64,000 nucleotides of DNA, taken from the NCBI RefSeq assembly GCF_000828635.1, contig NZ_AP012547.1, forward strand, positions 2,046,001 through 2,110,000. Reading direction: 5' to 3'. The notes below the pieces were generated by a model. It did not search any database. It was not told the DNA's origin and saw only the letters and a list, made by a program, of their open reading frames with translations. Positions within the stretch are counted from its first letter, which is position 1. The number at the start of each line of letters is the position of its first letter. Shown here piece after piece: positions 6,396 through 59,524 of this stretch. The position numbers and the translations under genes are program-made. The stretch is from Sulfuritalea hydrogenivorans sk43H. Its GTDB lineage: Bacteria > Pseudomonadota > Gammaproteobacteria > Burkholderiales > Rhodocyclaceae.

Positions 6396-7199
6396 ATGCA
6401 GATCGAAATCAACGGTCAATCGGCCTACGCCTACACCGGCGGCAAACCTTTCGATGCCGGCCTGCCCTGCGTCGTGTTCATCCATGGTGCGCAGAACGAC
6501 CATAGCGTCTGGGGCCTGCAAAGCCGCTGGTTTGCCCATCACGGCTATTCCGTACTGGCCGTCGACCTGCCCGGCCATGGCCGCAGCGCGGGCACCCCGC
6601 TGCCGTCGATCGAAGCTCTGGCCGACTGGATTGAATTGCTGCTGGAGAAAGTCGGCGCTGGTGATACGGCGAAAACCGTCTCGCTGGTCGGCCACAGCAT
6701 GGGTTCGCTGATGGCGCTGGAATGCGCCTCGCGTCATCCGGCTCGCATCGCCCGCATCGCGCTGATCGGCACCGCCGTACCGATGCCGGTCTCCGACGTC
6801 CTGCTGGGCCCGGCGAAGGACAATGAACCCAAGGCGATCAGCATGATCAACACCTGGTCGCATTCGCCACGCGGCACCATCGGCGGCAACACCGTGCCGG
6901 GCATGTGGCTGCTGGGCGCGGCGCGCCGCCTCATGGAACGGCAGCAGCCCGGCGTGCTGCACAACGACCTGGCCGCCTGCAACGCCTACAGCCACGGCAT
7001 GGACGCCGCCGCGGCACTGGCTTGCCCGGCGTTGATCGTCAGCGGCAGCCGGGACATGATGACGCACCCGAAGGCGGCCGCAAAGCTGGCCGCCGCGATC
7101 AAGGACGTCAGAAGCATCAATCTCGATGGTGCCGGCCATGCGCTGATGGCCGAGCAGCCCGATGCCGTGCTGGACGCCTTGCGCGGCTTCATCGCCTGA
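6396..7199 (+). CDS. Alpha/beta-hydrolase
   Basis: 267 residues with a complete alpha/beta-hydrolase pattern: oxyanion segment VVFIHGAQNDHSVWG, nucleophile elbow GHSMGS (Ser about 101), acidic residue near SGSRDMMTH and histidine in GAGHALM. No signal peptide, so cytoplasmic. Substrate cannot be told; MhpC/esterase-like members of this type cleave esters or C-C bonds. It follows metY by 3 bp. An in-gene copy of the 24-bp dispersed repeat (6648-6671) encodes EKVGAGDTA in the segment just before the nucleophile strand. Confidence 0.82.
   Translation: MQIEINGQSAYAYTGGKPFDAGLPCVVFIHGAQNDHSVWGLQSRWFAHHGYSVLAVDLPGHGRSAGTPLPSIEALADWIELLLEKVGAGDTAKTVSLVGHSMGSLMALECASRHPARIARIALIGTAVPMPVSDVLLGPAKDNEPKAISMINTWSHSPRGTIGGNTVPGMWLLGAARRLMERQQPGVLHNDLAACNAYSHGMDAAAALACPALIVSGSRDMMTHPKAAAKLAAAIKDVRSINLDGAGHALMAEQPDAVLDALRGFIA
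6648..6671 (+). repeat. Dispersed 24-bp repeat, copy 1 (inside hydrolase gene)
   Basis: Matches the consensus core AGTCGGCGCTGGCGAGACGG with T/T variants (GGTGATACGG). Read in frame as KVGAGDTA. One of about ten copies in this window; see the finding on the dispersed repeat. Confidence 0.7.
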
Positions 7200-7203
7200 C
7201 CCC

Positions 7204-7980
7204 TTGGAGGCATCCGAGGAAAAGCAGCACCCCTTCCCGACAGTCCGCAGCGGCCTGCCGCTGACTGCCCCGTTCGACTGGCTGCGCAGCGGTGCCGATG
7301 ATCTCAAGGCCTGCGGCTTTGCCAGCCTGTTTTACGGAATGTGTTTTGCCGCCGCCGGCGCGCTGCTGCTGCTTGCGTTTCGCCATGCCGTGCAACTGGT
7401 CACGGCTGTCACTACCGGCTTCATGCTGGTCGGGCCGTTCTTTGCCATCGGCCTGTATGAACTCTCGCGCCGCCGCGAGGCCGGCGAGCCGCTGCATCTG
7501 ATCGCCACGCTGATGGTCTGGCGCCGAAACCTCGGTGCCATCGGCATCTATTCGCTGATCCTGATCGTGCTCTACCTGGTCTGGGCGCGCGCCTCGCTGG
7601 TGATGTTCGCCCTGTTCTACCAGGGCGGGATGCCAACCCTGGAAAGCTTCATCGCGCAAATCACCCGATTCGACAATATCGAATTCCTGCTGGCCTACCT
7701 TGCCGTCGGCGGCCTCTTTGCAGGCCTCGTGTTCGCTTTTTCCGTGGTGTCGATCCCGATGATGCTGGATCGCCAGCAGGATGCGGTCACCGCCATGCTG
7801 GCAAGTTTTCTGGCGCTGGTACGCAACCTGCCGATGATGCTGGTCTGGGGCGCGCTGATCGTCCTGTTGACAGCGATCGGCTTCGCCACTGCCTTCATTG
7901 GCCTCATCGTCCTCATGCCGCTGGTAGGGCATGCCACCTGGCACGCCTACCGCGCCCTGATCGAAGCTCGCACACCATGA
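7204..7980 (+). CDS. DUF2189 family integral membrane protein
   Basis: About 258 residues with six hydrophobic segments; WLRSGADDLKACGFASLFYG and the following membrane segment match DUF2189 proteins, whose function is unknown. The start is uncertain: the open frame extends upstream into the hydrolase gene, but TTG at 7204, just after the hydrolase stop, gives a sensible N-terminus (EASEEKQHPFPTVRSG) without overlap. Overlaps the next gene by 4 bp (ATGA), so probably translationally coupled in the metY-hydrolase-DUF2189-MFS-YhhN gene string. Confidence 0.75.
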   Translation: MEASEEKQHPFPTVRSGLPLTAPFDWLRSGADDLKACGFASLFYGMCFAAAGALLLLAFRHAVQLVTAVTTGFMLVGPFFAIGLYELSRRREAGEPLHLIATLMVWRRNLGAIGIYSLILIVLYLVWARASLVMFALFYQGGMPTLESFIAQITRFDNIEFLLAYLAVGGLFAGLVFAFSVVSIPMMLDRQQDAVTAMLASFLALVRNLPMMLVWGALIVLLTAIGFATAFIGLIVLMPLVGHATWHAYRALIEARTP

Positions 7981-9164
7981 TGACCCACAAAAAGAACATC
8001 GCATTGCTGGCCGCGGCGCAGGCCCTGCTGCTGACCAACGGCATCACGCTGGTCGCCATCAACGGCCTGCTCGGACTGCAACTCGCCGCCGACAAGCGGC
8101 TGGCTACTCTGCCGATCACCACCTATGTGATCGGCGGCGCATTGGCCACCCTGCCCGCCGCGTTTTTCATGAAGCGCCATGGCCGCCGGGCCGGCTTCAT
8201 GCTCGGCGCCGGCATCGGCATGCTCGGCGCGCTGATCTCGGCCTTTGCCGTCAGCATCGGCAGCTTCTGGCTGCTTTGCCTCGGCACCGTATTTGCCGGC
8301 ATCTACAACGCTTTCGGCCAGCAATATCGTTTTGCCGCCGCCGATGCGGCGCCGCTCGACTGGAAAGGCAAGGCGATTTCGCTGACGCTGGCGGGCGGCA
8401 TCCTCGGCGGCGTGATCGGTCCGGAAGTCGGCAAACTGACGCGCACGCTGCTGGAACCCACCTACCTCGCCAGTTACGGCGCGCTGATCGGCTTCGCCGC
8501 ATTGTCCATGCTGATCGCCAGCCGGCTCGACATTCCGCCGCTGTCGGTCAGCGAGCAGAAAGCCGTTGGCCGTCCCCTGGGCACGATTGCCCGCCAGCCC
8601 GCCTTTGTTGTCGCCGTGCTGGCGGCATCCTGCGGCTATGGCGTGATGAACCTGCTGATGACGGCGACGCCGCTGGCCATGGACATCTGCGGCCTGCCGT
8701 TTTCCGACACGGCCTTCATCCTGCAATGGCACGTCATCGCCATGTTTGCACCGTCCTTTTTCACCGGCAATTTGATCAAGCGCTTTGGCGTACTGAACAT
8801 CCTTATCGTTGGTGCTGCGCTGATGTTCCTGTGCATCGGCATTGCCGTGTCTGGTGCCACGCTGATGCATTTCTGGTGGGCGCTGGTGCTGCTGGGACTG
8901 GGCTGGAACTTCCTGTTCATCGGCGGCACCACCCTGCTCACGGAAACCTATCGTCCGGAAGAAAAGGCCAAGGTGCAGGGCACCAACGATTTCATCGTGC
9001 TCGGCGTGCAGGGCCTGACGTCCTTGTCTTCCGGCGTCCTGATCGGCAGCGAAGGCTGGACCAGCCTCAACACCTATGCCCTGCCCATCGTGGCCATGAC
9101 GGCACTGGCAAGCACGCTGTTGTGGCTGCGCCGGCGATCCTCGCGCGAGGCGGCGGGCACATGA
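7977..9164 (+). CDS. MFS transporter
   Basis: 395 residues with about twelve hydrophobic helices and the MFS loop signature FMKRHGRRAGFMLGAGIG between helices 2 and 3. Inner-membrane secondary transporter. Substrate cannot be deduced. Its start overlaps the preceding gene by ATGA and its stop overlaps the next gene in the same way. Confidence 0.85.
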   Translation: MMTHKKNIALLAAAQALLLTNGITLVAINGLLGLQLAADKRLATLPITTYVIGGALATLPAAFFMKRHGRRAGFMLGAGIGMLGALISAFAVSIGSFWLLCLGTVFAGIYNAFGQQYRFAAADAAPLDWKGKAISLTLAGGILGGVIGPEVGKLTRTLLEPTYLASYGALIGFAALSMLIASRLDIPPLSVSEQKAVGRPLGTIARQPAFVVAVLAASCGYGVMNLLMTATPLAMDICGLPFSDTAFILQWHVIAMFAPSFFTGNLIKRFGVLNILIVGAALMFLCIGIAVSGATLMHFWWALVLLGLGWNFLFIGGTTLLTETYRPEEKAKVQGTNDFIVLGVQGLTSLSSGVLIGSEGWTSLNTYALPIVAMTALASTLLWLRRRSSREAAGT

Positions 9165-9820: not shown

Positions 9821-9870
9821 GCATAGAATCACGCCCAGACACCGGACAGGAAAATACGGCCCGGCACGGA

Positions 9871-11244: not shown

Positions 11245-11246
11245 GC

Positions 11247-11270
11247 CGCCGTATCGCTGGCGCCGACTCT
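11247..11270 (-). repeat. Dispersed 24-bp repeat, copy 2 (intergenic)
   Basis: Minus-strand copy (AGTCGGCGCCAGCGATACGG core) starting 2 bp after the stop of the CHASE-GGDEF gene, in the 100-bp gap before the FAD oxidoreductase. Confidence 0.75.
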
Positions 11271-11344
11271 TGCCGGCGAGAACCGGAAATACAGGCTGAA
11301 GATAGAATGACGGCCTTTTTGCCAGCGGCGATGGCGTACCACCC

Positions 11345-13092: not shown

Positions 13093-14061
13093 TCATAACC
13101 ACTCCAGTTCCCAGCGCACGCAGGGATCGAGCGCCGCCACGGCACGGGCGGCAAAGGCTTGCACGGCACCCCGGTCGGTCGCATCCCGCCCCATGAGCCA
13201 GCCGGCCAGCGGCCCTTGCGGATGGAAATTCCATTCGGTGGGCGCGACGATGACGTAGTCGGCGATGCGGTCGCCATCGAGCGTGATCTCGTGCATCAAC
13301 AGTCCGCGCGCGGTTTCCACCAGCGCGCGCCCCCGCCCGGCACCCGACGGCACCGCGCTCGCCGTACCGCCAGCGCCGACTTTCTCCGTGCCGGCAGCCC
13401 AGTCGCGCACCTCCCCGAGACGCGCCAGCCAGCGCGCGGCAAAGGCTCCCGCCGCAAGCTCCGCCCCGCCCTGCTGTCTGGCCATCGCCCCGGTTTCGGC
13501 GGCGGCCCCTTGCCAATGGGGCAGTTGCGCAAAACCGGCGTCAAGCCGGGGCCACCACTCCAGCGAGCCTTGCGCACTCAAGGGCGGCAGCCAGCGTGGC
13601 ACCGAATCGCTGGCATCTTCAAGCTTTGTCAGCGCCCGACCCTGGGCTTCGATGGAAGCCGCGCCGAGCAATTCGCCAAGTTCCTTGCGCTGCCCGCCGG
13701 CGATCAACGACAGGGCCGCAACAAACTCCCGCTGCATGGCAGTGGCGCCAAGCAATGCCGGCAGGTCGAGCAGCCAGCGCCAGAGATGCTCGCGCAACGC
13801 CTCCTGCTGGATCGCCGGATCGAGGTATGGCGTGCGCTGGTTGCCGCGCGCAGCCGCCAATGCAAGCATTGCGGCATTTCCCTGGGCTTTGCCGCACAGG
13901 GAAAACAGCAAGGGCACCATGTGCACGCCATCGTCCGCCGCCCGGCCGCGCAGGTAGTGCGCAATGGCGGGCCGCTCGCTGCCGACACTGACGGCACTCA
14001 GCTTTCCTTCCGCGCTTCCCAGCCGCAGGCGGACGCAGCCCGGATCGATGCCCGCCGTCAT
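13093..14061 (-). CDS. hoxV: Hydrogenase assembly protein HoxV/HupK
   Basis: 322 residues, last gene of the H2-sensor operon. It resembles a shortened hydrogenase large subunit: the C-terminal region has VIVAPTEWNFHPQGPLAGWL and ends DPCVRWELEWL where active large subunits have DPCxxCxxH. The N-terminal CxxC pair of large subunits is absent. HoxV/HupK proteins are known as scaffolds for Fe(CN)2CO transfer to the uptake-hydrogenase large subunit. Overlaps hoxJ by 4 bp. A copy of the dispersed repeat (13360-13383) encodes KVGAGGTA in its middle. Confidence 0.82.
   Translation of the reverse strand: MTAGIDPGCVRLRLGSAEGKLSAVSVGSERPAIAHYLRGRAADDGVHMVPLLFSLCGKAQGNAAMLALAAARGNQRTPYLDPAIQQEALREHLWRWLLDLPALLGATAMQREFVAALSLIAGGQRKELGELLGAASIEAQGRALTKLEDASDSVPRWLPPLSAQGSLEWWPRLDAGFAQLPHWQGAAAETGAMARQQGGAELAAGAFAARWLARLGEVRDWAAGTEKVGAGGTASAVPSGAGRGRALVETARGLLMHEITLDGDRIADYVIVAPTEWNFHPQGPLAGWLMGRDATDRGAVQAFAARAVAALDPCVRWELEWL
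13360..13383 (-). repeat. Dispersed 24-bp repeat, copy 3 (inside hoxV)
   Basis: Minus-strand copy differing from the consensus only in the GGCGGTACGG half. In frame it reads KVGAGGTA, as in copy 1. Confidence 0.72.

Positions 14062-18376: not shown

Positions 18377-18380
<4 letters not shown>
17388..18380 (-). CDS. hoxB: Regulatory [NiFe]-hydrogenase small subunit HoxB/HupU
   Basis: 330 residues starting MNLLWLQSGGCGGCTLSWLG, so the first Fe-S cysteines are at the very N-terminus and there is no Tat signal, as expected for a cytoplasmic sensor. Further cluster ligands: GSCSSWGG, NVAGCPPHPDW, HHGCPRNEYYEF, CLMEHLGCGG, and GGYACIRCTEPGFEE. It carries electrons in the HoxBC sensor and contacts HoxJ. 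Overlaps hoxA by 4 bp, so translation is coupled to the regulator gene. Confidence 0.93.
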
Positions 18381-19819
<1,439 letters not shown>

Positions 19820-19875: not shown

Positions 19876-19982
19876 GCCGCGAAGCGGCTGAACCGTAATC
19901 ACCCCTTTCCATGGGGCGTAGGCGGGGTTTCGCGGAGCACTGCTCCGCGCCGCCGCAGCCGGTCGGCTGTGCAAAGCCGACC
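19876..19982. repeat. Cluster of perfect hairpins between hypX and hoxA
   Basis: Within the 190-bp gap three perfect inverted repeats follow one another: AGCCGC-gaa-GCGGCT (19876-19890), CGCGGAGCA-c-TGCTCCGCG (19931-19949) and GGTCGGCT-N6-AGCCGACC (19961-19982). A weaker CCCC-N7-GGGG stem lies between the first two. None is followed by a run of T on the minus strand, so they are not classical terminators; they resemble REP-like structures and may slow or process the hypX-hoxA readthrough transcript. Confidence 0.75.
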
Positions 19983-20009
19983 GTGGGGCAGGGGTTGGGG
20001 GATAGGCGC

Positions 20010-21755
20010 TCATGTTTTCCAGCCGAGGTCGCGATGACGCGCCAGATGGCGCGGCGTCCAGGAAGCCAGCGACTTGACGACGAAATGAAAACGCGCGACA
20101 TGGTAACTGGGGTCGAAGCCGTAGAAGTTGCGTCGCATCTGCGCCAGTTCCCCGGCGCGGTACTCGGCCAGCGGCCTGGCTGCCTCGTCGCGTTCGCGCG
20201 CCGCCCGCTTGTCCTCAAGCCGTACTGCAAAGTCCGGCGCGGCGGCGATTTCGGCGGCGCGCCGGGCGACATCGACGCGCCAGGTGTCGCGGCTGCCGGC
20301 CAGCGCGGCGTCGGCAAAACCGGTCTCGACCGCACGCTGCGCCGTCAGCGGCAGGCGGTCACGCATGATGCGGCGCGCGCCCTCCTCGCCGACCCGGCGC
20401 GGCAGCAGGTAGGTCCAGTATTCCGAGCCGTAGAGGTTGCCCATGTTCTTGTAGTGCGGGTTGAGTATCGCTCCGTCGCGCACCCACATCAGGTCGGCCG
20501 CGCGCGCCAGGAAACAGCCGCCGGCGCCGGTGTTGCCGCCCACCGCCGCGACCGTGATCTGGTCGCGATTCTCGATCAGGTCCAGCGCCAGGTCGTCGAT
20601 GGCATTGATGTTACGCCAGGATTCGTCGGCGGGCGATTCCGCCTTCTCGATGACGTTGAGGTGGATGCCGTTGGACCAGAAATCCTCGCCGCCCATCAGC
20701 ACCAGCACTTTCGTCGGGCGTGTCCGGGCCCAGGTCAGCGCCTCGCGCAGCCGCTCGCACTGGCGCGAGGACATGGCGCCGTTGTAGAACTCGAAGTGGA
20801 GAAAACCCACGCCGTCGAATTCCTCGTAGGCGATGTCCTGCCAAGTCGGCGCCGGCAGCTTCCACCAGCCCGACAGCGGCGAGTCGGGCAGCGTCGCGCT
20901 TTCGGCGGCAAAGGCCAGCGTTACCGGCAATTTGACAAAGTCGGCGCTGGCGAGACGGCGTTCGACGTCGATGTTGTGCACCGAGATCGGCGCTTCGCCC
21001 TGACGAATCCGGCGCACATGGCCGATCCATACCGCGCCGTCGGTCGTCGCACGCAGCAACGCGTTCTCGCGGCGGGCGAGCAACGCGCCGGGCGTGCCGG
21101 TCAGCGTGGCTTCCGGCCAGGCATCAAATAATCGGCAAGGCTGGCCGAACAGTTCGTCCTCGACGCCGGGGAAGCCGTCGGCGGCGCGCAGCTTGTCCAG
21201 CACCGTGGCGGTGTCGTCGCGCTGCCAGTCGATGCGCCGGTCGGCCCCCTTCATCAGCGGCCGCCATGCGCCCTGCGCCGGGCGTTGCGGCACGAAATCG
21301 CCCGCCGCATAGCGGGCTACCGCCTGCAACACGGCTTGCGCCGCGCCATCGGTGACTTCGTTGCGATACAGGCTGGCCTTGGTCGCGGGTCGCATGGCGA
21401 ATTCCGCGTGTGCCCACACCGGTCCGGCATCCATTTCCGCCTCGGCCTGCAAGACCGTGACGCCCCACGTCGGCGTTCGCGTGTGAATCGCCCAGTCCAG
21501 CGCCGACGGCCCGCGGTCGCCGACGATGCCGGGATGGACGACGAGGCAGACGTGATTGCGCCAAACGGATTCCGGAATCGCGCGGCGCAGGTAGGGACAG
21601 ACGATGAGGTCGGGGCGGAACAGCGCGACGGCTTCCTCGGCCACGCTGTCGGCGATGTCGAACTCGATCGACAACTCGTGTCCCTGCCGCGTCAGGTCGG
21701 CCCACAAGCGCTGCGTCAGGCTGTTGAAGGCGTGGGTCAGGAGCAGGATGCGCAT
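20010..21755 (-). CDS. hypX: HypX, CO-ligand synthesis for [NiFe] hydrogenase
   Basis: 581 residues in two domains. The N-terminal half (about 1-250) is a formyltransferase/hydrolase fold with VVHPGIVGDRGPSALDWAI; the C-terminal half (about 290-560) is a crotonase fold with MGGEDFWSNGIHLN and AAVGGNTGAGGCFLA. HypX (HoxX) is known to take the formyl group of formyl-tetrahydrofolate to formyl-CoA and decarbonylate it to CO for the active site, which supports hydrogenase assembly under oxic conditions. ATG at 21755 begins the conserved MRILLLTHAFN. Last gene of the hyp cluster, 10 bp after hypE. Contains repeat copy 4. Confidence 0.9.
   Translation of the reverse strand: MRILLLTHAFNSLTQRLWADLTRQGHELSIEFDIADSVAEEAVALFRPDLIVCPYLRRAIPESVWRNHVCLVVHPGIVGDRGPSALDWAIHTRTPTWGVTVLQAEAEMDAGPVWAHAEFAMRPATKASLYRNEVTDGAAQAVLQAVARYAAGDFVPQRPAQGAWRPLMKGADRRIDWQRDDTATVLDKLRAADGFPGVEDELFGQPCRLFDAWPEATLTGTPGALLARRENALLRATTDGAVWIGHVRRIRQGEAPISVHNIDVERRLASADFVKLPVTLAFAAESATLPDSPLSGWWKLPAPTWQDIAYEEFDGVGFLHFEFYNGAMSSRQCERLREALTWARTRPTKVLVLMGGEDFWSNGIHLNVIEKAESPADESWRNINAIDDLALDLIENRDQITVAAVGGNTGAGGCFLARAADLMWVRDGAILNPHYKNMGNLYGSEYWTYLLPRRVGEEGARRIMRDRLPLTAQRAVETGFADAALAGSRDTWRVDVARRAAEIAAAPDFAVRLEDKRAARERDEAARPLAEYRAGELAQMRRNFYGFDPSYHVARFHFVVKSLASWTPRHLARHRDLGWKT
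20937..20960 (+). repeat. Dispersed 24-bp repeat, copy 4 (inside hypX)
   Basis: Identical over all 24 bp to copy 6 in chrB. Read on the hypX strand it encodes RRLASADF in the linker between the two HypX domains, a different frame from copies 1, 3 and 5. Confidence 0.78.
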
Positions 21756-21765: not shown

Positions 21766-22830
21766 TCAACATATTCTTGGAAGCTGGTCGCCGGCCAGCC
21801 AATCGACGATGCGCTTGCCGCCGAAAGCCGTGGTGAGCTGGACGAAGTGATGATCGTCGACGATGACCTCGCCGATCCGCGACGCCTCGCGTCCCAGCGG
21901 ATGGGCGCGCATCGCGGCCAGCAGCCGATCGGCATCGGCCGGTGCACATATCGCGATCAGCTTGCCTTCGTTGGCAACGTAGAGCGGATCGAGGCCGAGG
22001 AATTCGCAGGCGGCGGAAACCACCGGCTTTACCGGAATCGCCTTTTCGTGAAGCATGACGCCGACGCCGGACTGGCCGGCGATTTCGTTCAGCGTCGCGG
22101 CGAGACCACCGCGCGTCGGGTCGCGCAGGCAGCGCAAGTCGGCGCCGGTGGCCAGCATGGCGGCAATCAGGCCGTTCAGGGCCACGGTATCGGACTCGAT
22201 CGGCGCGTCGAAGGACAGGTTCTCGCGCTTGCTCATGATGGCCACGCCGTGGTCGCCCATCGAGCCGGAAATGATCACCGCATCGCCCGGCCGCGCCCTC
22301 GCTCCGCCGAGTTCGAGGCCGTCGGGCAGGATGCCGACACCCGTGGTGGTGATGAAGACGCCGTCGCCCTTGCCGCGCTCGACCACCTTGGTGTCGCCCG
22401 TCACCACCGGCACGCCGGCCTCTGCCGCCGCATGCGCCATGGATTCAACGATGCGCGCCAGGTCGGCCAGCGGAAAGCCTTCCTCAAGCACGAAGCCGGC
22501 GGCGAGATAGAGCGGCGTTGCCCCCATCACGGCGACGTCATTGACCGTGCCATGCACCGACAGGCAGCCGATGTCGCCGCCGGGAAAGAACAGCGGCGAG
22601 ACGACATGGCAGTCGGTGGACATCACCAGGCGCCCGGCACGCCCCTCAAGAGTCGGCGCTGGCAACACGGCGCCATCGTTGCCCTGCCCCAGGTATTCGT
22701 TGCCCAGATGCTTCGCGAACAGTTCGGAAATCAACTGCACCATGGAACGTCCGCCGGAACCGTGCGTCAGGTCGACGCGCCCGTGCTTCAGGTCCAGCGG
22801 GCGCACATAGCCCCTTTTTGCTTCACTCAT
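21766..22830 (-). CDS. hypE: Hydrogenase maturation protein HypE
   Basis: 354 residues. AIR-synthase/PurM fold with LTHGSGGRSM near the N-terminus, FFPGGDIGCLSVHGTVND, and PVVTGDTKVVERGKGDG. The C-terminus is PRIC, whose cysteine is carbamoylated by HypF and dehydrated with ATP to the thiocyanate that supplies the CN ligands. Begins directly before the hypD stop (no gap). Confidence 0.94.
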   Translation of the reverse strand: MSEAKRGYVRPLDLKHGRVDLTHGSGGRSMVQLISELFAKHLGNEYLGQGNDGAVLPAPTLEGRAGRLVMSTDCHVVSPLFFPGGDIGCLSVHGTVNDVAVMGATPLYLAAGFVLEEGFPLADLARIVESMAHAAAEAGVPVVTGDTKVVERGKGDGVFITTTGVGILPDGLELGGARARPGDAVIISGSMGDHGVAIMSKRENLSFDAPIESDTVALNGLIAAMLATGADLRCLRDPTRGGLAATLNEIAGQSGVGVMLHEKAIPVKPVVSAACEFLGLDPLYVANEGKLIAICAPADADRLLAAMRAHPLGREASRIGEVIVDDHHFVQLTTAFGGKRIVDWLAGDQLPRIC

Positions 22831-23958: not shown

Positions 23959-24200
23959 GAGGCCGCGGTTCCCTCGACGGTTCCCGCCTCGTTCAGTTCG
24001 GCAAACAGGGCGAGCGTCCTTTCGGCCTCTTCGGGATCGAGCTTGGTCAGCGCGTAGCCGACGTGCAGGATCACGTAATCGCCGACATTCACATCGGACA
24101 GCAGGGCCAGCGATATTTCTTTCTTGACGCCGCCCAGATCGACAATCGCCGTGTCGCCAGCGCCGACTTCCACTACCTTCACCGGTATTGCGAGGCACAT
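23955..24200 (-). CDS. hypC: Hydrogenase assembly chaperone HypC
   Basis: 81 residues, beginning MCLAIPVKVVEV with the essential Cys2 and then VDLGGVKKEISLALL, DYVILHVGYALTKLDPEEAE. HypC binds HypD and carries the Fe(CN)2CO unit to the large subunit. It lies with hypD and hypE, and a second, diverged copy (hupF) lies at 27517 next to the uptake structural genes, giving a general and a dedicated chaperone. Contains repeat copy 5. Confidence 0.94.
   Translation of the reverse strand: MCLAIPVKVVEVGAGDTAIVDLGGVKKEISLALLSDVNVGDYVILHVGYALTKLDPEEAERTLALFAELNEAGTVEGTAAS
24147..24170 (-). repeat. Dispersed 24-bp repeat, copy 5 (inside hypC)
   Basis: Minus-strand copy with GGCGACACGG in the second half. 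In frame it encodes EVGAGDTA in HypC, at a place where other HypC proteins have sequence of equal length, so it may be substitution rather than insertion. Confidence 0.6.
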
Positions 24201-35140: not shown

Positions 35141-36484
35141 TTAGCGGATGAAGGACAATACCAGCCCAAGGGCGGCGCAGGCGCCGATCATCTTCATGAT
35201 GTCGACCTTGTATTTCCACAGCGCGATGAAGGCGGCGATGGCGATGACCATCTGCAGCGACTCGAAGGGGCCGCCAAAGGGCATGGCCTTGCTGCCCTTC
35301 GGCCAGAAGGTGTGCCAGGCGAAGAACACGGCGAGGTTCAGGATCACGCCCACCACCGCCGCGGTGATGGCGGTCAGCGGCGCGGTGAACTTTAGCTCGC
35401 CGCGTGTCGCCTCGACCAGGGGGCCGCCGGCGATGATGAACCAGAAACTCGGCAGGAAGGTGAAGAAAGTTGCCACCGCCGCACCGGCCAGTCCTGCGGT
35501 GATGGGGTCGCCCAGCACGGACTTGGTCACGCCACCCATGTAGCCAACCCAGGTGACGATCATGATCAGCGGCCCCGGCGTGGTTTCACCGAGCGCCAGG
35601 CCATCCATCATCTGCGGGCCGGTGAGCCAGCCGAAATGCTCCACCGCACCCTGGTAGACATAGGGCAGCACGGCGTAGGCGCCCCCGATGGTGAGGAAGG
35701 CCGCACCGATGAAGAACTCGCCCATCTTGAAGAGGTCAGTTGATCCGCGCAGGACCAGCAGCGAGGCGACGCCGATCACGAGGAACACCAGGGTCGTGGC
35801 GGCGAGCTTGCCCGAAGAGAATTTCGCGTGCGCCGGTGGCGGCGTGTCGTCGTCGATGATCGCCGGGCCGTAGGTCGCGTTGCTGGCGCCATGGCCGCCG
35901 CCGCCCTTGAACTTCGCCGGCATCAACTTGCCGCCGAGGGCGCCCAGAATGGCGGCCGCCAGCACGATCCACGGAAAATCGATGTCGAAGAAGAAGATGC
36001 CGATGAAAGCCAGTGCGGCGATGCCGAACAATATCCCGTTCTTGATCGACCTGGAGCCAATGCGCCAGGCGGCGAACAGCACCACCGCGACCACCGCCGG
36101 CTTCATGGCGTAAAAAACGCCCTGCATCGCCGGCACGTCGCCGTAGGAAAGATAGATGCCGGCGAGCACAGACAGCAGCACGAAAGCCGGCAGGAAGAAC
36201 AGCACGCCGGCCATGATCGCGCCCTTGACGCCATGCATCAGCCAGCTGATGTAGATGGCGAGCTGGATCGCCTCCGGGCCCGGCAGCAGCATGCAGTAGT
36301 TGAGCGCATGCAGGTAGCGGTGTTCGGAGATCCAGCGGCGGCGTTCGACCAGTTCCTGATGCATCATCGCAATCTGCCCGGCCGGACCGCCGAAACTGAT
36401 GAAGCCGAGTTTCAGCCAGTACTTGAAGGCCTCGCCGGGAGTCGGCGTTGGCGGTACGGCGATCGGCATGGCGGTATCACTCAT
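35141..36484 (-). CDS. chrA: Chromate transporter ChrA
   Basis: 447 residues. Two tandem chromate-transport (CHR) halves, the first with WLKLGFISFGGPAGQIAMMHQELVERRRW and YCMLLPGPEAIQLAIYISWL, the second with FLTIGGAYAVLPYVY and LALGETTPGPLIMIVTWVG. About ten to twelve membrane helices. Exports chromate across the inner membrane. Overlaps chrB by 8 bp. Confidence 0.93.
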   Translation of the reverse strand: MSDTAMPIAVPPTPTPGEAFKYWLKLGFISFGGPAGQIAMMHQELVERRRWISEHRYLHALNYCMLLPGPEAIQLAIYISWLMHGVKGAIMAGVLFFLPAFVLLSVLAGIYLSYGDVPAMQGVFYAMKPAVVAVVLFAAWRIGSRSIKNGILFGIAALAFIGIFFFDIDFPWIVLAAAILGALGGKLMPAKFKGGGGHGASNATYGPAIIDDDTPPPAHAKFSSGKLAATTLVFLVIGVASLLVLRGSTDLFKMGEFFIGAAFLTIGGAYAVLPYVYQGAVEHFGWLTGPQMMDGLALGETTPGPLIMIVTWVGYMGGVTKSVLGDPITAGLAGAAVATFFTFLPSFWFIIAGGPLVEATRGELKFTAPLTAITAAVVGVILNLAVFFAWHTFWPKGSKAMPFGGPFESLQMVIAIAAFIALWKYKVDIMKMIGACAALGLVLSFIR

Positions 36485-37388
36485 CGGGGCGTTCCTGCTG
36501 GAAATTTTTGTAGAGATTGTCGAAGAGGCGGTTCGCCTCGGTCAGCAACTTGTCGTCATCCGGCGCGGCGGCCCGTGCACCCGCCAGCACCGCTTCGACG
36601 CCCGCCGCCTCGGCCACCGCGACGCCGCCGACGTCGAGGCAATGAACGATGGCGGCGATGCGGGTAAGCGCCGGATCGCCGTCAAGCCCGAAACTTGCCG
36701 CCAGCACTTCGAAAGTGACGCGACCGTCCATGTGGGTGAAGGCCGCGCCGTCGAAGTCGAAGCCGAGCGCCGACTTCGGGCACTTCTTCGGACTGTCGAG
36801 CCAGAGGAATTTTGCCTTGCGATCGATGAAGCGGCGAATCAGCCAGGCCGATCCCATGCGATCGACCCAGAGATTTTTTCGCGTCGCCCAGGTTCGTCCC
36901 TGAAAGTCGGCGCTGGCGAGACGGCGAATGCGGCCGGATGCCGCCGATGGCTCGCCGTCGGCCGCCGCTTCAAGCTCGGCCAGCGCGGCCTCGGCCTGCC
37001 GCCGGGCCTCGCCGGGAAAATAATCGATGGCAACGAGGGCGGTCAGTTCCCGGCGCAGCCCGCGCAAGGCCTTGGCATCCCCCGCGTCGGCAGCCGCGAT
37101 TGCCGCCAGCAGCCGCGCATAGTCGGGAGCACGATCGAACAGCGCGACGATTTCCGCCTGCTGCCGCTCGTCGCGCCCGCCGAGGCGGTACAAATCGACC
37201 GTGCCCTCCGTCGCGCGAACGTCGTCGGCGATTTGCGCCAGCGCCGCGGCATGTTCCGGCGACTCGGGCAGCAAATACACCCCATCGCGCAAGGTCGCGC
37301 AGCCCAGGGCGCGCAGCGCGCGCCAGACGCGCATGCGACCGGCGGATTGCCGCGTCGGCAGGCTGACAAACAGGGCAAGGAAGTCCAT
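36477..37388 (-). CDS. chrB: Chromate resistance regulator ChrB
   Basis: 303 residues. N-terminal domain (LFVSLPTRQSAGRMRVWRAL) and C-terminal ChrB domain (RKNLWVDRMGSAWLIRRFID, TFEVLAASFGLD, IAAIVHCLDVGG). ChrB is known as a chromate-responsive regulator of chr operons; its C-terminal domain is also found alone, as in the broken gene at 34872. The repeat copy at 36903-36926 encodes RRLASADF between the two domains. A sigma-70 promoter with a dyad lies just upstream. Confidence 0.9.
   Translation of the reverse strand: MDFLALFVSLPTRQSAGRMRVWRALRALGCATLRDGVYLLPESPEHAAALAQIADDVRATEGTVDLYRLGGRDERQQAEIVALFDRAPDYARLLAAIAAADAGDAKALRGLRRELTALVAIDYFPGEARRQAEAALAELEAAADGEPSAASGRIRRLASADFQGRTWATRKNLWVDRMGSAWLIRRFIDRKAKFLWLDSPKKCPKSALGFDFDGAAFTHMDGRVTFEVLAASFGLDGDPALTRIAAIVHCLDVGGVAVAEAAGVEAVLAGARAAAPDDDKLLTEANRLFDNLYKNFQQERPDE
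36903..36926 (+). repeat. Dispersed 24-bp repeat, copy 6 (inside chrB)
   Basis: All 24 bp are identical to copy 4 in hypX; the encoded RRLASADF is also the same, although the two proteins are unrelated. Both sit in an inter-domain linker. Confidence 0.78.
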
Positions 37389-37449: not shown

Positions 37450-37457
37450 CACCCTGG

Positions 37458-37655
37458 CTACTTGTACTTCTTGGACACCGCCTTCGCGTCCCGGTGCGCG
37501 CGCTCCAGGGTGCAGATCGACGGATCGTCATCGTGGCCGCTGAAGAAATCGTCGGCCTGGGCGCGCATCACCATCTGGATCGCGGCCTCATCGCTGCTGC
37601 CGTACTTTTCGGTGATGAGGGTGGTGACTTCGTCAAGGTGCTCTTCGTAGGTCAT
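37458..37655 (-). CDS. Small hypothetical protein
   Basis: 65 residues, acidic and soluble (TYEEHLDEVTTLITEKYGSS, ending AVSKKYK). I do not recognise a family. It follows the VF530-family gene by 6 bp on the same strand and is probably cotranscribed with it. The start at 37655 is the only in-frame ATG near the N-terminus. Confidence 0.6.
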   Translation of the reverse strand: MTYEEHLDEVTTLITEKYGSSDEAAIQMVMRAQADDFFSGHDDDPSICTLERAHRDAKAVSKKYK

Positions 37656-41723: not shown

Positions 41724-41787
41724 ATCCGCAGCGGCGAGGATCCGCAGCGGCGAGGATCCGCAGCGGCGAGGATCCGCAGCGGCGAGG
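41724..41787. repeat. Four tandem 16-bp units
   Basis: Unit ATCCGCAGCGGCGAGG repeated four times without a mismatch. Period 16 is not a multiple of three, so it is not a protein repeat. Unit number is likely to vary between strains by slippage. Confidence 0.92.
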
Positions 41788-41868
41788 AGAGCGTACTTTG
41801 CTCGACCGCCTGGCTGCGCAGGGGATTCATCAGAGCGTACTTTGCTCGACCGCCTGGCTGCGCAGGGG
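41788..41868. repeat. 37-bp perfect direct repeat
   Basis: Copies at 41788-41824 and 41832-41868, identical over 37 bp (start AGAGCGTACTTTGCTCGACC), with only 7 bp between them. It directly follows the 16-bp tandem array. Each copy contains GAGC-N7-GCTC, a small hairpin. Confidence 0.92.
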
Positions 41869-42015
41869 CAGCATCAGCGCCGACCTTGCGGCCAATTCAG
41901 TCCGGATACCCATTTCGACGATCGAATAGAAACTAATCAGCCGAATCATCGCCAAAGCTCATAACTGCATGATTAATCGTAAGTTATGTTGTATCAAAAG
42001 CCGGGCATGGATTTT

Positions 42016-42922: not shown

Positions 42923-42946
42923 CGCCGTACCGCCGGCGCCGACTCC
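42923..42946 (-). repeat. Dispersed 24-bp repeat, copy 7 (intergenic)
   Basis: Minus-strand copy about 30 bp after the permease stop. It is flanked by GCCGCC and GGCGGC, which could make a stem around it. Confidence 0.72.
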
Positions 42947-45598: not shown

Positions 45599-45622
45599 CG
45601 CCGTATCGCCGGCGCCGACTCG
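45599..45622 (-). repeat. Dispersed 24-bp repeat, copy 8 (intergenic)
   Basis: Minus-strand copy starting 2 bp after the stop of the GGDEF-EAL gene, the same placement as copy 2 after another GGDEF gene. CGCCG at its start and CGGCG just after it could pair. Confidence 0.75.
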
Positions 45623-46756: not shown

Positions 46757-46757
46757 T

Positions 46758-49515: not shown

Positions 49516-51327
49516 ATGTCCGATATCGATGTGATTGCTGCTGTCCTTGACCGCCACCATCATGACGGCACGCGCCTGATGCAGATTCTGCGCGAGATAC
49601 AGGAACAACTTGGCTGGCTGGCTCCCGAAACCTTGACCAGCGTGGCGGCGACGGTTGGCTGGCCGCGCGCCAGGGTCGAAGGCACCGCCGATTTCTACAG
49701 CTTCTTCCACACCCGGCCGATGGGCCGCTACCGCGTTTTGTGGAGCGACAACATCACCGACCGCATGCTGGGCAATACCGACCTGATGGACGCCATGTGC
49801 AAGAAGCTCTGGCTGGAACCGGGGCGGGTTTCCGAAGACGGACTGGTCAGCGTCGATACCACGTCCTGCACCGGCATGTGCGACCAGGGGCCGGCGCTGC
49901 TGGTCAACTACCGGGCGATCACGCGCATGACGCCCTCCCGCGTCGACGACATGATCGAGCTGATCCGCAAGGAAGCGCCCGTCGCCGAATGGCCGGCGGC
50001 ATGGTTCGCGGTCGAGGACAACATCCGGCGCAAGGGCATCCTGCTCGATCACGGCCTGGTTCCCGGCCAGGCCCTGGCGGCGGCGCTGGAACGCGGCCCG
50101 GAAAAGATGCTGGCCGAGATCAAGGATGCGAAGCTGCGCGGCCGCGGCGGCGCCGGCTTCGGCACCGGCCTCAAATGGGAGGCCTGCCGCAATGCCGCGG
50201 GACATGGAGCGGGTGCCGCGCATTACGTCGTCTGCAATGCCGACGAAGGCGAACCCGGCACCTTCAAGGATCGCGTGTTGCTGACTTCCCATGCCGATCT
50301 GGTATTCGAGGGCATGAGCATCGCCGGCCTGGTGGTGGGCGCGAAAAAGGGCCTGCTCTACCTGCGTGGCGAGTACCGCTACCTGCTCGAACCCCTGGAG
50401 TCGGCGCTGGCGGCACGGCGCGAAGCGAAACTGCTGGGCAGCAACATCCTCGGCACGCCTTTCGAGTTCGACATCGAAATCCACCTCGGTGCCGGCGCCT
50501 ACATCTGCGGCGAGGAATCGGCGCTGATCGAGTCGCTCGAAGGCAAGCCCGGCCGGCCACGCATCCGCCCGCCCTTCCCCGTCACCCACGGCTACCTCGA
50601 CCAGCCGACCACGGTGAACAACGTCGAGACGCTGGCGGCGGCCTGCCTGATCGCCACCCACGGCAGCGCCTGGTATCTGCGGCACGGCACCGAAAAATCC
50701 AGCGGCAGCAAGATCCTTTCCGTCAGCGGCGACTGCGAACGCCCCGGAATCTACGAATATCCCTACGGCGTCACGGTACGGCAGGTGCTTGACGACTGCG
50801 GCGCCTGGAATCCCCAGGCCGTGCAGGTCTCCGGCCCTTCCGGCATCTGCCTGGCGGAAGCCGAATTCGGCCGCCGGATCGCCTTCGAGGACATCCCCAC
50901 CGCGGGCGCCTTCATGGCCTTCGACGAAACCCGCGACATGTTCGAGGTGGCGCGCAACTTCGCCCACTTCTTCGCCCACGAGTCCTGCGGCTTCTGCACC
51001 CCATGCCGGGTCGGTACCACGCTGGTGCGCAACCTGATGGACAAGATCGCGCGCAACCACGGCTCGCCCTACGACATCAACGAACTGTTCAAGCTGCACC
51101 GGCTGATGCAGGGCGCCAGCCACTGCGGGCTGGGCAACAGCGCCTGCAACCCGATGTTCGACACGCTCAACAAGTTCCGTCCCGCCTACGAACGCCGGCT
51201 CATGTCGCTCAATTACGAACCGGCCTTCGATCTCGACGCGGCACTTTCGCAAGCGCGGCAGATGACCGGCCGCGACGACGACGCCGCGCATTTTTCAGCG
51301 CATTTGCAAAAAGAGGCCGAAGCATGA
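49516..51327 (+). CDS. hoxF: NAD-reducing hydrogenase diaphorase subunit HoxF (HoxE-HoxF type)
   Basis: 603 residues, the length of betaproteobacterial HoxF, which includes an N-terminal NuoE-like part. FMN/NAD domain: RGRGGAGFGTGLKWEA, NADEGEPGTFKDR and GAGAYICGEESALIESLEG. C-terminal [4Fe-4S] ligands: ESCGFCTPCRVG and later HCGLG. The N-terminal NuoE part keeps only a CTGMC pair; the other two usual cysteines are gone, as in related HoxF proteins. Passes electrons between H2 cluster modules and NAD+. Overlaps hoxU by ATGA. Confidence 0.93.
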   Translation: MSDIDVIAAVLDRHHHDGTRLMQILREIQEQLGWLAPETLTSVAATVGWPRARVEGTADFYSFFHTRPMGRYRVLWSDNITDRMLGNTDLMDAMCKKLWLEPGRVSEDGLVSVDTTSCTGMCDQGPALLVNYRAITRMTPSRVDDMIELIRKEAPVAEWPAAWFAVEDNIRRKGILLDHGLVPGQALAAALERGPEKMLAEIKDAKLRGRGGAGFGTGLKWEACRNAAGHGAGAAHYVVCNADEGEPGTFKDRVLLTSHADLVFEGMSIAGLVVGAKKGLLYLRGEYRYLLEPLESALAARREAKLLGSNILGTPFEFDIEIHLGAGAYICGEESALIESLEGKPGRPRIRPPFPVTHGYLDQPTTVNNVETLAAACLIATHGSAWYLRHGTEKSSGSKILSVSGDCERPGIYEYPYGVTVRQVLDDCGAWNPQAVQVSGPSGICLAEAEFGRRIAFEDIPTAGAFMAFDETRDMFEVARNFAHFFAHESCGFCTPCRVGTTLVRNLMDKIARNHGSPYDINELFKLHRLMQGASHCGLGNSACNPMFDTLNKFRPAYERRLMSLNYEPAFDLDAALSQARQMTGRDDDAAHFSAHLQKEAEA

Positions 51328-52612: not shown

Positions 52613-54100
52613 ATGAGCTTCGAACTCGAAACCGCCCTCTCCCCCGAAAAACTGCGCCGCGTCGCCATCGATCCCGTGTCGCGGGTCGAAGGCCACGGCA
52701 AGGTCACCATCCTGCTCGACGACGACAACAAGGTGCACCAGGTGCGCCTGCACATCGTCGAATTCCGCGGCTTCGAAAAATTCATCCAGGGCCGCCCGTA
52801 TTGGGAAGTTCCGGTCATGGTGCAGCGCCTGTGCGGCATCTGCCCGGTCTCGCACCATCTCGCCGCCTCGAAGGCGCTGGACATGATGCTCGGCATCAAG
52901 CAACTGACGCCGACCGCCGAAAAGAATCGCCGCCTGATGCACTACGGCCAGATTCTGCAATCGCATGCTTTGCATTTCTTCCATCTTTCTTCACCCGACC
53001 TGCTGTTCGGCTTCGGTTCGGACGTCGCCGCGCGCAATGTCGTCGGCGTCATCGCCGCGCATCCCGAGATCGCCAGGAAGGGCGTACTGCTCAGGAAGTA
53101 CGGCCAGGAAGTGATCCGCATGACGGCCGGCAAGCGCGTGCATGGCACCGGCTCGATTCCCGGTGGCGTGAACAAATCGCTGTCGGCCGAAGAACGCGCC
53201 GAGCTGCTGAAAGACATCTACCAGATGGTGGCCTGGTCCCGCGAGGCGGTCGGCATGATCCGCGGCCTGTTCGAGCAGAACCTCGTCGAATACAACGACT
53301 TCGGCCGCTTCCGCTCCGCCGGCATGTGCCTGGTGTCGCCCTCCGGCGCGATGGACCTCTACCACGGCGGCCTGCGCGCGCGCGACATCGACGGCAAGAC
53401 CCTGTTCGACCATTTCGATTACGGCCGCTACTGGGATGTCATCGCCGAGGACGTCAAGCCCTGGTCCTACATGAAGTTCCCCTTCTTCAAGTCGCTGGGG
53501 CCGGACGACGGCTCCTACCGCGTCGGCCCGCTGTCCCGCGTCACCCTCTGCGACAGCATCGCGACACCGCTGGCCGACAAGGCGCGCGAGGAATTCATGG
53601 CCTTCGACGGCGGCAGCGCAGCCGGCGCCACGCTCGGCTACCACTGGGCACGCATGATCGAAATGCTGCACGCCGCCGAGAGCATCAAGGACCTGCTGCA
53701 CGACGACGACATCAGCGGCCACGACCTGATGGCCACCGGAACCCGCCAGGAACGCGGCGTCGGCGTCATCGAAGCGCCGCGCGGCACGCTGATCCACCAC
53801 TACCGCGTCAATGAAGACGACCAGGTGATCCGCGCCAACCTGATCGTGTCGACCACGCACAACAACCAGGCGATGAACACGGCGGTGCGCGAAGTGGCGA
53901 AGAAGTACCTCAACGGACGCGAGATCACCGAAGGCCTGCTCAACCACATCGAAGTCGCGATCCGCGCCTTCGACCCCTGCCTGTCCTGCGCCACGCATGC
54001 ACTGGGCCAGATGCCGCTCGAAGCCGCAATAGTCGGCGCTGACGGTACGGTGATCGACGAAGCCACGCGAGACCATCGCGGGCTCACCCGGAAAGTTTGA
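52613..54100 (+). CDS. hoxH: NAD-reducing hydrogenase large subunit HoxH
   Basis: 495 residues. Ni-site cysteines QRLCGICPVSHHLAAS near residue 65 and DPCLSCATH near the C-terminus. After this His follow 33 residues (ALGQMPLEAAIVGADGTVI and on) that HoxW should remove. Catalyses reversible H2 conversion in the cytoplasm. Repeat copy 10, the weakest, lies within the removable tail. The hairpin element at 54118 follows its stop. Confidence 0.94.
   Translation: MSFELETALSPEKLRRVAIDPVSRVEGHGKVTILLDDDNKVHQVRLHIVEFRGFEKFIQGRPYWEVPVMVQRLCGICPVSHHLAASKALDMMLGIKQLTPTAEKNRRLMHYGQILQSHALHFFHLSSPDLLFGFGSDVAARNVVGVIAAHPEIARKGVLLRKYGQEVIRMTAGKRVHGTGSIPGGVNKSLSAEERAELLKDIYQMVAWSREAVGMIRGLFEQNLVEYNDFGRFRSAGMCLVSPSGAMDLYHGGLRARDIDGKTLFDHFDYGRYWDVIAEDVKPWSYMKFPFFKSLGPDDGSYRVGPLSRVTLCDSIATPLADKAREEFMAFDGGSAAGATLGYHWARMIEMLHAAESIKDLLHDDDISGHDLMATGTRQERGVGVIEAPRGTLIHHYRVNEDDQVIRANLIVSTTHNNQAMNTAVREVAKKYLNGREITEGLLNHIEVAIRAFDPCLSCATHALGQMPLEAAIVGADGTVIDEATRDHRGLTRKV
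54028..54051 (+). repeat. Dispersed 24-bp repeat, weak copy 10 (inside hoxH tail)
   Basis: Matches AGTCGGCGCTGACGGTACGG, with changes in both halves. The encoded VGADGTV is plausible native HoxH tail sequence, so this copy may be coincidental. Confidence 0.4.
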
Positions 54101-54212: not shown

Positions 54213-54233
54213 TAGACTTTTTGGTTCTACCGC

Positions 54234-54695: not shown

Positions 54696-54705
54696 GCATC
54701 GCGCC

Positions 54706-57233: not shown

Positions 57234-59497
57234 GCGGCGCCGCCCCCAGTTTCCACCAGATGGCTGCGCTGACGCATCGACGCCGCGTCGAGCAGCATGC
57301 GGCCGGCCCAGCGGTAAACATTGAATTCGGCGACCAGGCCGCGCATCAGGCGCATGCGATTTCGTTGCTCGTCGACCGGCATGGTCAACGCAAGATGCAG
57401 GGCCGCCGCGCACTGGTCGGTATCGTAGGGATTGACGATCAGCGCCTCCGGCAGTTCGCGCGCGGCGCCGGTGAATTGCGACAGGATCAGCACGCCGCGC
57501 TCGTCGTCGCGCGCCGCGACGAATTCCTTCGCCACCAGGTTCATGCCATCGTGCAGGCTGCTGACGAAACAGCAATCCGCCGCGCGATAGTATTCGTAGA
57601 CCTGGCCGGCGTCGTGATGCTCGACCTTGAGCACGATCGGCAGGGGCAGGTCGCGGCCGCCGCGGCCGAAGCGCTCGTTGATGCGTATCGCCAGTGCCCG
57701 CACCTGGGCCTCGTGGCTCTGATATTCGTCGATGCTGGAGCGCGTCGGCGCCGCCACCTGAATCAGGCTGAACTTGCCTATCCATTCCGGATTGAGTTCC
57801 AGCAGTCGTTCGACGGCACGGAAGCGCTCCAGTATTCCCTTGGTATAGTCGAGTCGATCGACGCCGATGCAGAACCTGTGTCCTGCGGGAAAGTTGTTCA
57901 ATGCGCGCATGTCGGCCGCGCACTGTTCGACCGGCTTTGCCAGCAAGGCGGGATCGGGCGGCCAGTCGACCGAGATGGGGTAACGCCGCACCGCGGTGGA
58001 TTTTCCGCCAAACGATACGGTGAAGTTCTCCCGATCCACCCGCGCTTCCATGAAACGATCCACGGTATCGACGAAGTTGTTGCAGTGAAACTGGGTGTGA
58101 AAGCCGAGGATGCTGCTGCCGAGCATACCGGCGAGTATCTCCTGGCGCCAGGGACAAATGGCGAAGGACTCCGGATTCGGCCACGGAATATGCCAGAAGG
58201 TGATCACCGTAGCCTCCGGCATTTCCTTGCGAATCATGCGCGGCAGCAGGGCCAGGTGGTAATCCTGCACCAGCACGATCGGATTCTTCGTGCGCGCCTC
58301 GGCGACCACCGACCTGGCGAACTTGCGGTTGACCGCGACGTAATGCGCCCAGTCCGACGAACGGAAGATCGGGCGCACATGGGCGATGTGGCACAGCGGC
58401 CACAGCCCTTCGTTGGCGAAGCCGTAGTAGTAGCCGGCCTCCTCCTCCGCGCTGAGCCAGACCCGGCGTATCTTGTAGGCCGGATTTTCGGGAGGGACGC
58501 CGACGCAGTCATGGCGATCGACCACCTCGCGATCGGCCGAGCCGCTGCCATGGGCGATCCAGGTGCCGGAGCAGGCGCGCATGATCGGTTCCAGCGCCGT
58601 CACCAGCCCGCTGGCAGGCTGCTGCACCTCGATGCGCTCGCCGCGGCGCTGGTGGATGTAAGGCTCGCGGTTGGATACCACGATGACGTCGTCGCCGCGC
58701 AATTCGCCATGCAGGATCGCGCGCAGGGTTTCCGGCGTCCAGGCCATTTGCGATTCGTCGCGCGCGCGGTGCTCCGCTTCGAGGTCGCGCACCAGGCGCT
58801 GCAGATCGCGGGCAATCGGCCGAAATTCGGGAAGGCCCATTTTCGCCGCCGCGGCCGGGTCGCGCAGCAGGCCTTCGCCGCGCAGCAGGGAGCGCATCCC
58901 TGCCAGCCAGCCGCGCCAGGAAAGCTGGGCGATCACCACCGTCAACAGCGAGACGATGACGGCGAGGCCGATGAAGGCATGGAAAATGTAGCGCGTGGTT
59001 TCCTCGCTGCGCCGCGTGGCGAAGCTGAGGTCGTGTACCAGCACCAGCTTGCCGGCCGGATAGGCCTCGTTCGCCATCGGCTGGACCGACACATGCAGCG
59101 GGCCGCGCTTGCTCGGCAATGCGTTCTCTCCACCCGGAGGCCAGCGCTCCAGATCGTTGCAGCGCACTTCGGCCGGCATGGATTTGGAGGCAACGGCACT
59201 ACCTTCGCCGCCGGGACAGAAGCCGATCGCATACAGGCGCTCGTCCTGGGTGATGCGGACGAAGAACTCGCCGATTTTCGCCTTGCGTCCGGCAGCGAGC
59301 TGCTCGAACAGGGGCTCGCTGATGGTGTTGGCGATCAGTACCGCGCGAATGTCCAGATCGCGCGTGAACCAGCGCAGAATCATCCGATCGACCAGCGGCG
59401 ACACCGCGTAGGCAAAGCCGGTCAGCACCAGGATCAAGGGCAAGACAAAACGCAGGGAAAGTCGCATCAGGGTCTGCTTCCGCACAAATGGCTGCAC
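57230..59497 (-). CDS. otsA: Membrane-anchored trehalose-6-phosphate synthase (OtsA fusion)
   Basis: 755 residues, about 280 longer than usual OtsA. Residues 1-275 are not OtsA: a membrane helix about 14-32, a periplasmic stretch (about 33-170), a second helix about 168-188 and a HAMP/linker-like region. The C-terminal 480 residues are a GT20 synthase with [38 protein letters not shown] and [13 protein letters not shown]. It transfers glucose from UDP-glucose to glucose-6-phosphate. The N-terminal arrangement is that of a sensor, so synthesis may be tied to an envelope signal. ATG at 59497 or 59467 are both possible starts. Confidence 0.9.
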
Positions 59498-59500
59498 CGA

Positions 59501-59524
59501 CGCCGTCCCGCCGGCGTCGACTCT
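59501..59524 (-). repeat. Dispersed 24-bp repeat, copy 9 (upstream of otsA)
   Basis: Minus-strand copy with two changes (GTCGACGCCGGCGGGACGG), beginning 3 bp upstream of the otsA start, in the leader region between the usp and otsA genes. Confidence 0.62.

Follow-up and report, generated by a model that had tools for sequence, protein, structure and literature searches.

Why should one short string of bases recur in genes as unrelated as hypX and chrB, and again in the spaces between genes? The question is raised by a 64,000-bp stretch of the chromosome of the freshwater bacterium Sulfuritalea hydrogenivorans sk43H (NZ_AP012547.1, positions 2,046,001 to 2,110,000; hereafter the window), in which an earlier note had claimed about ten dispersed copies of a 24-bp repeat. 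This repeat, named S, has the core AGTCGGCGCTGGCGAGACGG, and matches to it were counted at up to three mismatches. All ten listed copies were recovered and four more are present, which makes 14 in the window against a mean of 0.00 in 100 dinucleotide shuffles. Is S a peculiarity of this stretch? The genome-wide count, proposed in the earlier note as a check, gave 662 copies in the source genome (G000, 3,802,648 bp), 333 forward and 329 reverse, or 1 per 5.7 kb, against 1 + 0 for the pattern read backwards, and a random count is thereby excluded. Strong over-representation on both strands is a mark of uptake sequences. By analogy with these, the reading proposed here, at a probability of about 0.45, is that S serves throughout the genome as a DNA recognition mark akin to an uptake sequence, a 'watermark' whose reader, we infer, would be a DNA-uptake or DNA-exchange machine.

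What does S look like, and is the word itself under constraint? A sample of 464 kb, made of the window and 20 spaced 20-kb stretches (12% of the genome), gave the consensus rArAGTCGGCG-C-T/c-GGCG-R-N-ACGGCG-a-y-t, about 24 bp long, non-palindromic and with sharp edges. Position weight matrix scores in this sample are bimodal, with 84 strong sites among 94 above 12 bits. The 84 sites hold 36.7 bits (R_sequence, a value somewhat inflated because they were picked by similarity), against the 13.5 bits (R_frequency) that would be enough to address the sites of S in the genome. No even spacing was seen, counts per 20 kb being Poisson-like (mean 3.5, variance 3.7). Across 14 orthologue groups the substitution rate was 0.07 at the fixed positions of S, 0.22 at its degenerate positions and 0.19 in the flanks, the fixed positions lying below the flank in 13 of the groups (Wilcoxon p 0.0002). 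At third codon positions the rate was 0.067 in S against 0.198, lower in 10 of 13 groups (p 0.009). These rates were averaged by group because chrB supplies many pairs; G016, a relative discussed below, was left out, as was any pair gapped at 3 bp or less from S, and seven of the 14 groups consist of one or two pairs. Since the fixed positions change nearly three times slower than the flanks, third codon positions included, S is very probably a maintained DNA word.

Distribution and dialects among relatives

How far does S reach beyond this genome? (Other G numbers denote genomes of relatives, g numbers genera and L numbers loci.) Among 24 congeners searched, 22 carry 336-715 copies, G021 has 160 and G016 has 51, and 16 genomes from other families hold 0-7. 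A survey of the order found four of 399 genomes with at least 100 copies (the source genome, two of g18 and one of g22) and a maximum of 12 elsewhere. In the family, 18 of 160 genomes reach that number, from genera g1, g18, g22, g166, g192, g199 and g215; of the remainder, G442 has 49 copies and the others have 20 or fewer. An exact 27-base form of S was found in 22 stretches in a collection of 84,980 species; their titles read Sulfuritalea sp., Rhodocyclales, Rhodocyclaceae, uncultured beta proteobacterium or Burkholderiaceae bacterium. S is lineage-specific, belonging to Sulfuritalea and six further genera of the family, and the other genomes sampled in the order have it at background level. 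Two individual genomes deserve a remark: G442 contains a dispersed 12-mer with six copies in 200 kb, and in the draft G471 near-perfect S copies cluster on contigs C66, C104, C449 and C557, perhaps as contamination by an S-rich relative.

Does the word change from lineage to lineage? G462 (genus g199) carries AGTCGACG and not AGTCGGCG, with A at position 6, in 99 of the 100 matches listed (119 in total); the search left position 6 open and the count was made by eye. Four S copies near comEC, in two genomes of g18, end in ACGGCA. S thus combines lineage-specificity with dialects, as uptake sequences do. The word can apparently also disappear. Of the 51 copies in G016, 47 stand at two or three mismatches, and places within four mismatches of S number 11 in 380 kb (control 1), against 93 in 464 kb of G000 (control 2). 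In a tree of a single protein, ComEC (26 sequences, from 26 of 30 fetched comEC loci, four having dropped out through a wrongly chosen frame; 12 of 42 genomes gave no locus), G016 is nested inside the genus with support 98/98. Because of this nesting and these counts, G016 most likely lost S. Was another dialect adopted instead? None was found in the 380 kb of G016, where the top dispersed word, ACCGCAGAGGCGCAGAGGCGC (L416-L434), is unrelated to S. Other long words were also sought in the S-poor G242, G412, G481, G439, G331 and G459 (120-140 kb each), and with single-place words set aside none scores as high as S does in G000 or G551. Some S-poor relatives have dispersed 12-mers of their own: GGGTTGACCGTG occurs eight times in 120 kb of G331 (L383-L388) and GCGGGAATGACG seven times in 140 kb of G242 (L356-L362).

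Placement in genes and chromosome

Where in the genome does S sit? Gene calls in the sample rest on a hexamer model of our own, so the placement figures are approximate. Thirty of the 84 sites are intergenic, against 7.4% of random 22-bp places. Of these 30, 17 lie within 40 bp of a stop codon and 11 between convergent genes, where 19% would be expected in each case. The coding sites are divided into 29 sense and 24 antisense, in four of the six frames, and one further site is partly coding. S prefers gene ends and linkers. Permissive placement, intergenic enrichment and base-level conservation are all features of uptake sequences, and S has all three. The earlier note had wavered between a mini-mobile element, a binding site and a repeat tolerated in linkers: the last is borne out by the positions of the sites, a maintained recognition site agrees with the constraint at fixed positions, and the mini-mobile element is disfavoured for reasons given below.

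Two further roles were considered for S and set aside. Strand skew by replichore was not seen (17/21 and 15/17, +/-, in the sampled chromosome halves; 333/329 overall), which speaks against a polar chromosome motif of the Chi or KOPS (FtsK-orienting polar sequence) type. A terminator or inverted-pair role seems unlikely: two inverted pairs occur among the 84 sampled sites, the second (L068) with a changed base in its arms, and the other intergenic copies show no general pairing. The few inverted pairs are near-perfect hairpins in which the degenerate positions mostly match.

By the gene model, 10 of the 14 window copies are coding and four intergenic. Coding copies had been claimed in only two frames; there are four, read as a VGAG-TA type in four genes, RRLASADF in two, SALA-RR in two and an AV-P-PT type in two. 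Copy 1 (6648..6671, plus strand, two mismatches) reads VGAGDTA in an alpha/beta hydrolase gene (6396-7199, Abhydrolase), copy 3 (13360..13383, minus, two mismatches) VGAGGTA in a NiFe-hydrogenase-like gene (13093-14061), copy 5 (24147..24170, minus, one mismatch) VGAGDTA in a hypC-like gene, and copy 9 (54029..54052, plus, three mismatches), which had been termed weak, VGADGTV near the end of a NiFe hydrogenase gene (52613-54100). Copies 4 (20937..20960) and 6 (36903..36926), both on the plus strand and free of mismatches, give RRLASADF antisense in a hypX-like gene (20010-21755) and in chrB (36477-37388, directly ahead of the ChrB_C domain); they are indeed the same over 24 bp, with cores at 20939 and 36905. 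The four extra copies lie at 18732..18755 (core start 18734, minus, two mismatches; SALAGRR in a sigma-54 response regulator gene, 18377-19789), at 22649..22672 (core start 22651, plus, two mismatches; AVLPAPT, antisense in a hypE-like gene, 21766-22830), at 36438..36461 (core start 36440, plus, three mismatches; antisense in the variable N-terminus of chrA, 35141-36484) and at 50397..50420 (core start 50399, plus, two mismatches; SALAARR in a gene at 49516-51327 with thioredoxin-like 2Fe-2S and Complex1_51K domains). The intergenic copies are all on the minus strand. Copies 2 (11247..11270, three mismatches) and 8 (45599..45622, two mismatches, between convergent genes) stand 2 bp past the stops of a CHASE-GGDEF and a MASE3-PAS-GGDEF-EAL gene, just as had been described; copy 7 (42923..42946, three mismatches) follows a NicO-family gene and copy 10 (59501..59524, three mismatches) is just upstream of a minus-strand glycosyltransferase family 20 gene.

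The window holds other repeats besides S. One of about 43 bp at 37455-37500 has matches in G004, G011 and G023; tandem repeats of 16 and 44 bp occupy 41724-41875, near the start of an SNF2-helicase gene; and a palindromic repeat (GCGGAGCACTGCTCCGC..GGTCGGCTGTGCAAAGCCGACC) at 19930-19990 has relatives in the chrA N-terminus of G017 and G011.

Possible readers and origins

How could such a word spread? If S is an uptake-like mark, the double-stranded word would be read by something and S-bearing DNA would be passed on preferentially in DNA exchange. Recombination would in turn carry S to new places and mend it wherever the genome tolerates it, in linkers, at gene ends and on both strands. Spread by preferential transmission, and not by hundreds of separately selected sites, is suggested because of the excess bits (36.7 against 13.5), the concerted change of dialect and the settlement in tolerated places. 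The sole S-free stretch among the 20 sampled (n = 1; L060, G000:C1:1900001-1920000) is a conjugative element with F-type TraN/TraU, HipA and McrBC genes. As for the machinery, comEC is present in G000, and a pilin operon there has a pilin of the ComP_DUS family beside PilW and PilY1. With more doubt than confidence, S may be put forward as a genome-wide self-mark for DNA exchange that arose independently for a third time, in the Rhodocyclales; it would be the longest such word known, with genus dialects and a machinery without recognisable ComEA. If true, a third lineage, one of environmental bacteria, would show that sexual isolation by DNA words has evolved convergently, and the near-loss in G016 and the switched dialect of G462 would make molecular drive versus selection directly testable.

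Several observations weigh against an uptake mark. ComEC and ComP_DUS do not discriminate because they are near-universal (42 of 42 and 38 of 41 genomes, respectively), and for the same reason the ComP_DUS family was rejected as a means of finding the S receptor; no receptor was found. The ComP_DUS-type pilin of G000 is variable, being about 35-65% identical to full-length matches in congeners. ComEA (TIGR00426) passed the cut-off in only 2 of 21 S-rich genomes (both g215), against 3 of 11 S-poor ones, so it is unlinked to S, and in none of 10 S-rich Sulfuritalea, G000 included; all but one of the matches below the cut-off lie in open frames of about 780-1,240 residues, which we take to be Tex-like. 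Of 20 genomes searched for inverted S pairs with exact 12-base arms, 17 of them S-rich, five have a single pair and 15 have none, although the true number is higher, because exact arms were required and the L068 pair was missed. At about 24 bp, S is roughly twice as long as known uptake sequences (10-12 bp for the DNA uptake sequence, DUS), and at its density it is sparser. The excess of gaps at S sites described below belongs here as well, as does the presence of S on IMG/VR contigs, and the open-licence literature yielded no paper on competence or natural transformation in Sulfuritalea. Nor did searches of that literature turn up a paper on uptake sequences or dispersed repeats in Rhodocyclales or Rhodocyclaceae, or on over-represented uptake signals in betaproteobacteria.

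The density of S on IMG/VR contigs was not used as evidence either way: 80 loci hold 117 copies, or 0.16/kb (each locus was chosen for one copy; 0.05/kb beyond it), against 0.18 in the host sample. One of the contigs inspected has phage tail genes, another integrase and ParB genes. A 28-kb contig with a phage tail J gene carries, at L147:629-2280, a 316-bp tandem array (GCCTAAC..GTTAGGC) with one S per unit; the units are presumably integron cassettes of attC form.

Could S instead be the binding site of some chromosomal protein, serving to organise, repair or recombine the chromosome or to let a defence nuclease recognise self, with each site kept by selection? The constraint on fixed positions would fit this well, and so would the restriction to a lineage, the undetected ComEA in the Sulfuritalea searched and the stability of the sites: between G007 and G018, which are about 88% identical, 7 of 10 sites are common within three mismatches, two partners have 4-5 and one has 7, and none is gapped. 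However, selection for binding would not call for 36.7 bits where 13.5 suffice, S is not palindromic, and the roughly 660 sites, which stand where the genome tolerates them, showed no pattern in spacing, strand or half of the chromosome. Selection acting site by site would also hardly produce a one-base switch made in concert by nearly all the G462 copies listed. The uptake reading is kept at the probability given above, and the chromosomal protein, its main rival, is regarded as unlikely but well worth keeping in mind, because ComEA is scarce, ComEC and ComP_DUS are general, the pilin is variable and inverted pairs are few. If S is no uptake mark, some protein's target would have been written about 660 times, which would be at least as surprising.

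Or did S arrive as inserted DNA? A very small mobile element, like the small dispersed repeats of cyanobacteria or the REP (repetitive extragenic palindromic) type, would insert as a unit, and the high copy number agrees with it, but the genes tested tell otherwise. Stutzerimonas ChrB aligns gap-free over the octapeptide (IPRLNRADYQ against IRRLASADFQ), therefore S was fitted onto a partly similar peptide. At S, HslU is three residues shorter than the solved chains 1g3i and 1do0 (presumably HslU of H. influenzae and E. coli), and LysA is three residues longer than its solved homologue 3n2b and two shorter than 4xg1; given these small differences and the gap-free ChrB, none of the three contains an insertion of 7-8 residues. 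HypC by its Pfam span has 60 residues on 59 profile positions, and in HypX S lies within a variable-length linker where alignment to three distant HypX is not decisive. Judging from these comparisons, S takes the place of existing sequence in ChrB, HslU and LysA, with no inserted DNA in the genes tested. Within the genus, 589 site pairs from 52 sites were compared: the partner keeps S at three mismatches or fewer in 372, at 4-6 in 67 and at seven or more with equal length in 27, and 123 are gapped. Partners missing at least 10 bases are found in only four pairs (0.7%, control 0.3%), all at one indel-rich site where G003 and G009 lack 10-16 bp relative to G004 and G007. With this site excepted, the clean presence or absence expected of a small mobile repeat was not seen. 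The site itself speaks for insertion, as do the longer, hairpin-containing forms of S that sister genomes have at a shared site, the gaps, which overlap S in 21% of pairs (123/589) against 6.5% of control windows, and the S copy in the comEC linker, which faces shorter linkers in other genera (an ambiguous alignment that included wrong frames and was used for this linker only). The excess of gaps is expected of linkers and hairpin forms, and it counts against a purely substitutional origin. Against insertion stands also the conservation of fixed over degenerate positions, and a mobile element is on balance improbable. Still more so is the idea that S is what remains, as a scar, of a longer modular element built as 5' AAAAGT + hairpin + 3' CGGCGCTGGCGRNACGGCGA. 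Five R-type hairpins (TATG..GGTATCCCC or GGCATCCC..GGA) do lie between AGT and CGG of S in the sample, with a sixth between GGT and CGG, and a second hairpin form occupies the same point of S in four fetched congener loci; yet whole S exceeds hairpin forms by more than 10:1 in the sample and is constrained, the R hairpin also occurs without S (L051, L065) and no flanking direct repeats were seen. A conserved peptide, finally, is refuted by the frames, and the earlier claim that protein homology cannot explain the repeats holds. Almost every aligned chrB locus of the genus retains its copy and the distant ChrB shares RL..AD.Q with the octapeptide, but S is found in four frames, on both strands and between genes, its third codon positions are constrained, and the orthologue comparison suggested at the outset found the full octapeptide missing from the distant proteins compared (the Stutzerimonas ChrB and three HypX).

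The hairpins themselves are placed as follows. The REP-like R hairpin lies inside S at L051:10622, L053:17209, L053:14837 and L063:17097 (the last two as reverse-strand offsets), L059:12030 (the GGT case) and L065:17194, and without S at L051:1431 and L065:12492. The second form (AGTTCCC..GGGACGCAG..) is inside S at L397, L401, L403 and L408, in four congeners, and others have plain S there.

Comparison with known systems

How does S compare with words already known to be written many times in a genome? Chi and KOPS are 8-bp words with strand or replichore skew. Like S they have many copies, are non-palindromic and are read as DNA, whereas S is a long word and shows no skew. REPs are palindromes found mostly outside genes. 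With REPs and REPINs, and with the small dispersed repeats of cyanobacteria, S shares its shortness, its dispersal, its high copy number and its nesting with hairpins; it differs in that, in the genes tested, it replaces existing sequence, and in its base-level constraint.

The closest likeness is with uptake sequences. DUS are read by the minor pilin ComP, and inverted DUS pairs are frequent at terminators. In the Neisseriaceae, DUS are intragenic as well as intergenic, in permissive regions, and their dialects track phylogeny, according to the part of PMC3630211 drawn on here. An excerpt of PMC2397512 describes them as highly conserved and absent from recently acquired genes, with new copies opposite unlike homologous sequence. 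From PMC7371117, likewise in excerpt, come an atypical DUS distribution in conjugative elements and a Neisseria integrative and conjugative element whose attP exploits DUS; by analogy with the latter, S may be a preferred target of the REP-like hairpin. S resembles DUS in its high copy number, its permissive genic and intergenic places, its strong conservation and its dialects. Besides being longer and sparser, S is unlike DUS in its unrelated sequence, its seemingly few inverted pairs and its different family (Rhodocyclales), and ComEA went undetected in most of the S-rich genomes that were searched. Uptake marks are known from no families but Neisseriaceae and Pasteurellaceae, as far as the portion of PMC12616744 used here goes. 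The uptake signal sequence (USS) of the latter has a 9-bp core of other sequence in gammaproteobacteria, with an established function, whereas for S a role in uptake is a proposal. The same portion of PMC12616744 presents USS as a high-copy, lineage-wide mark with sequence types, and in each of these three respects S is like it.

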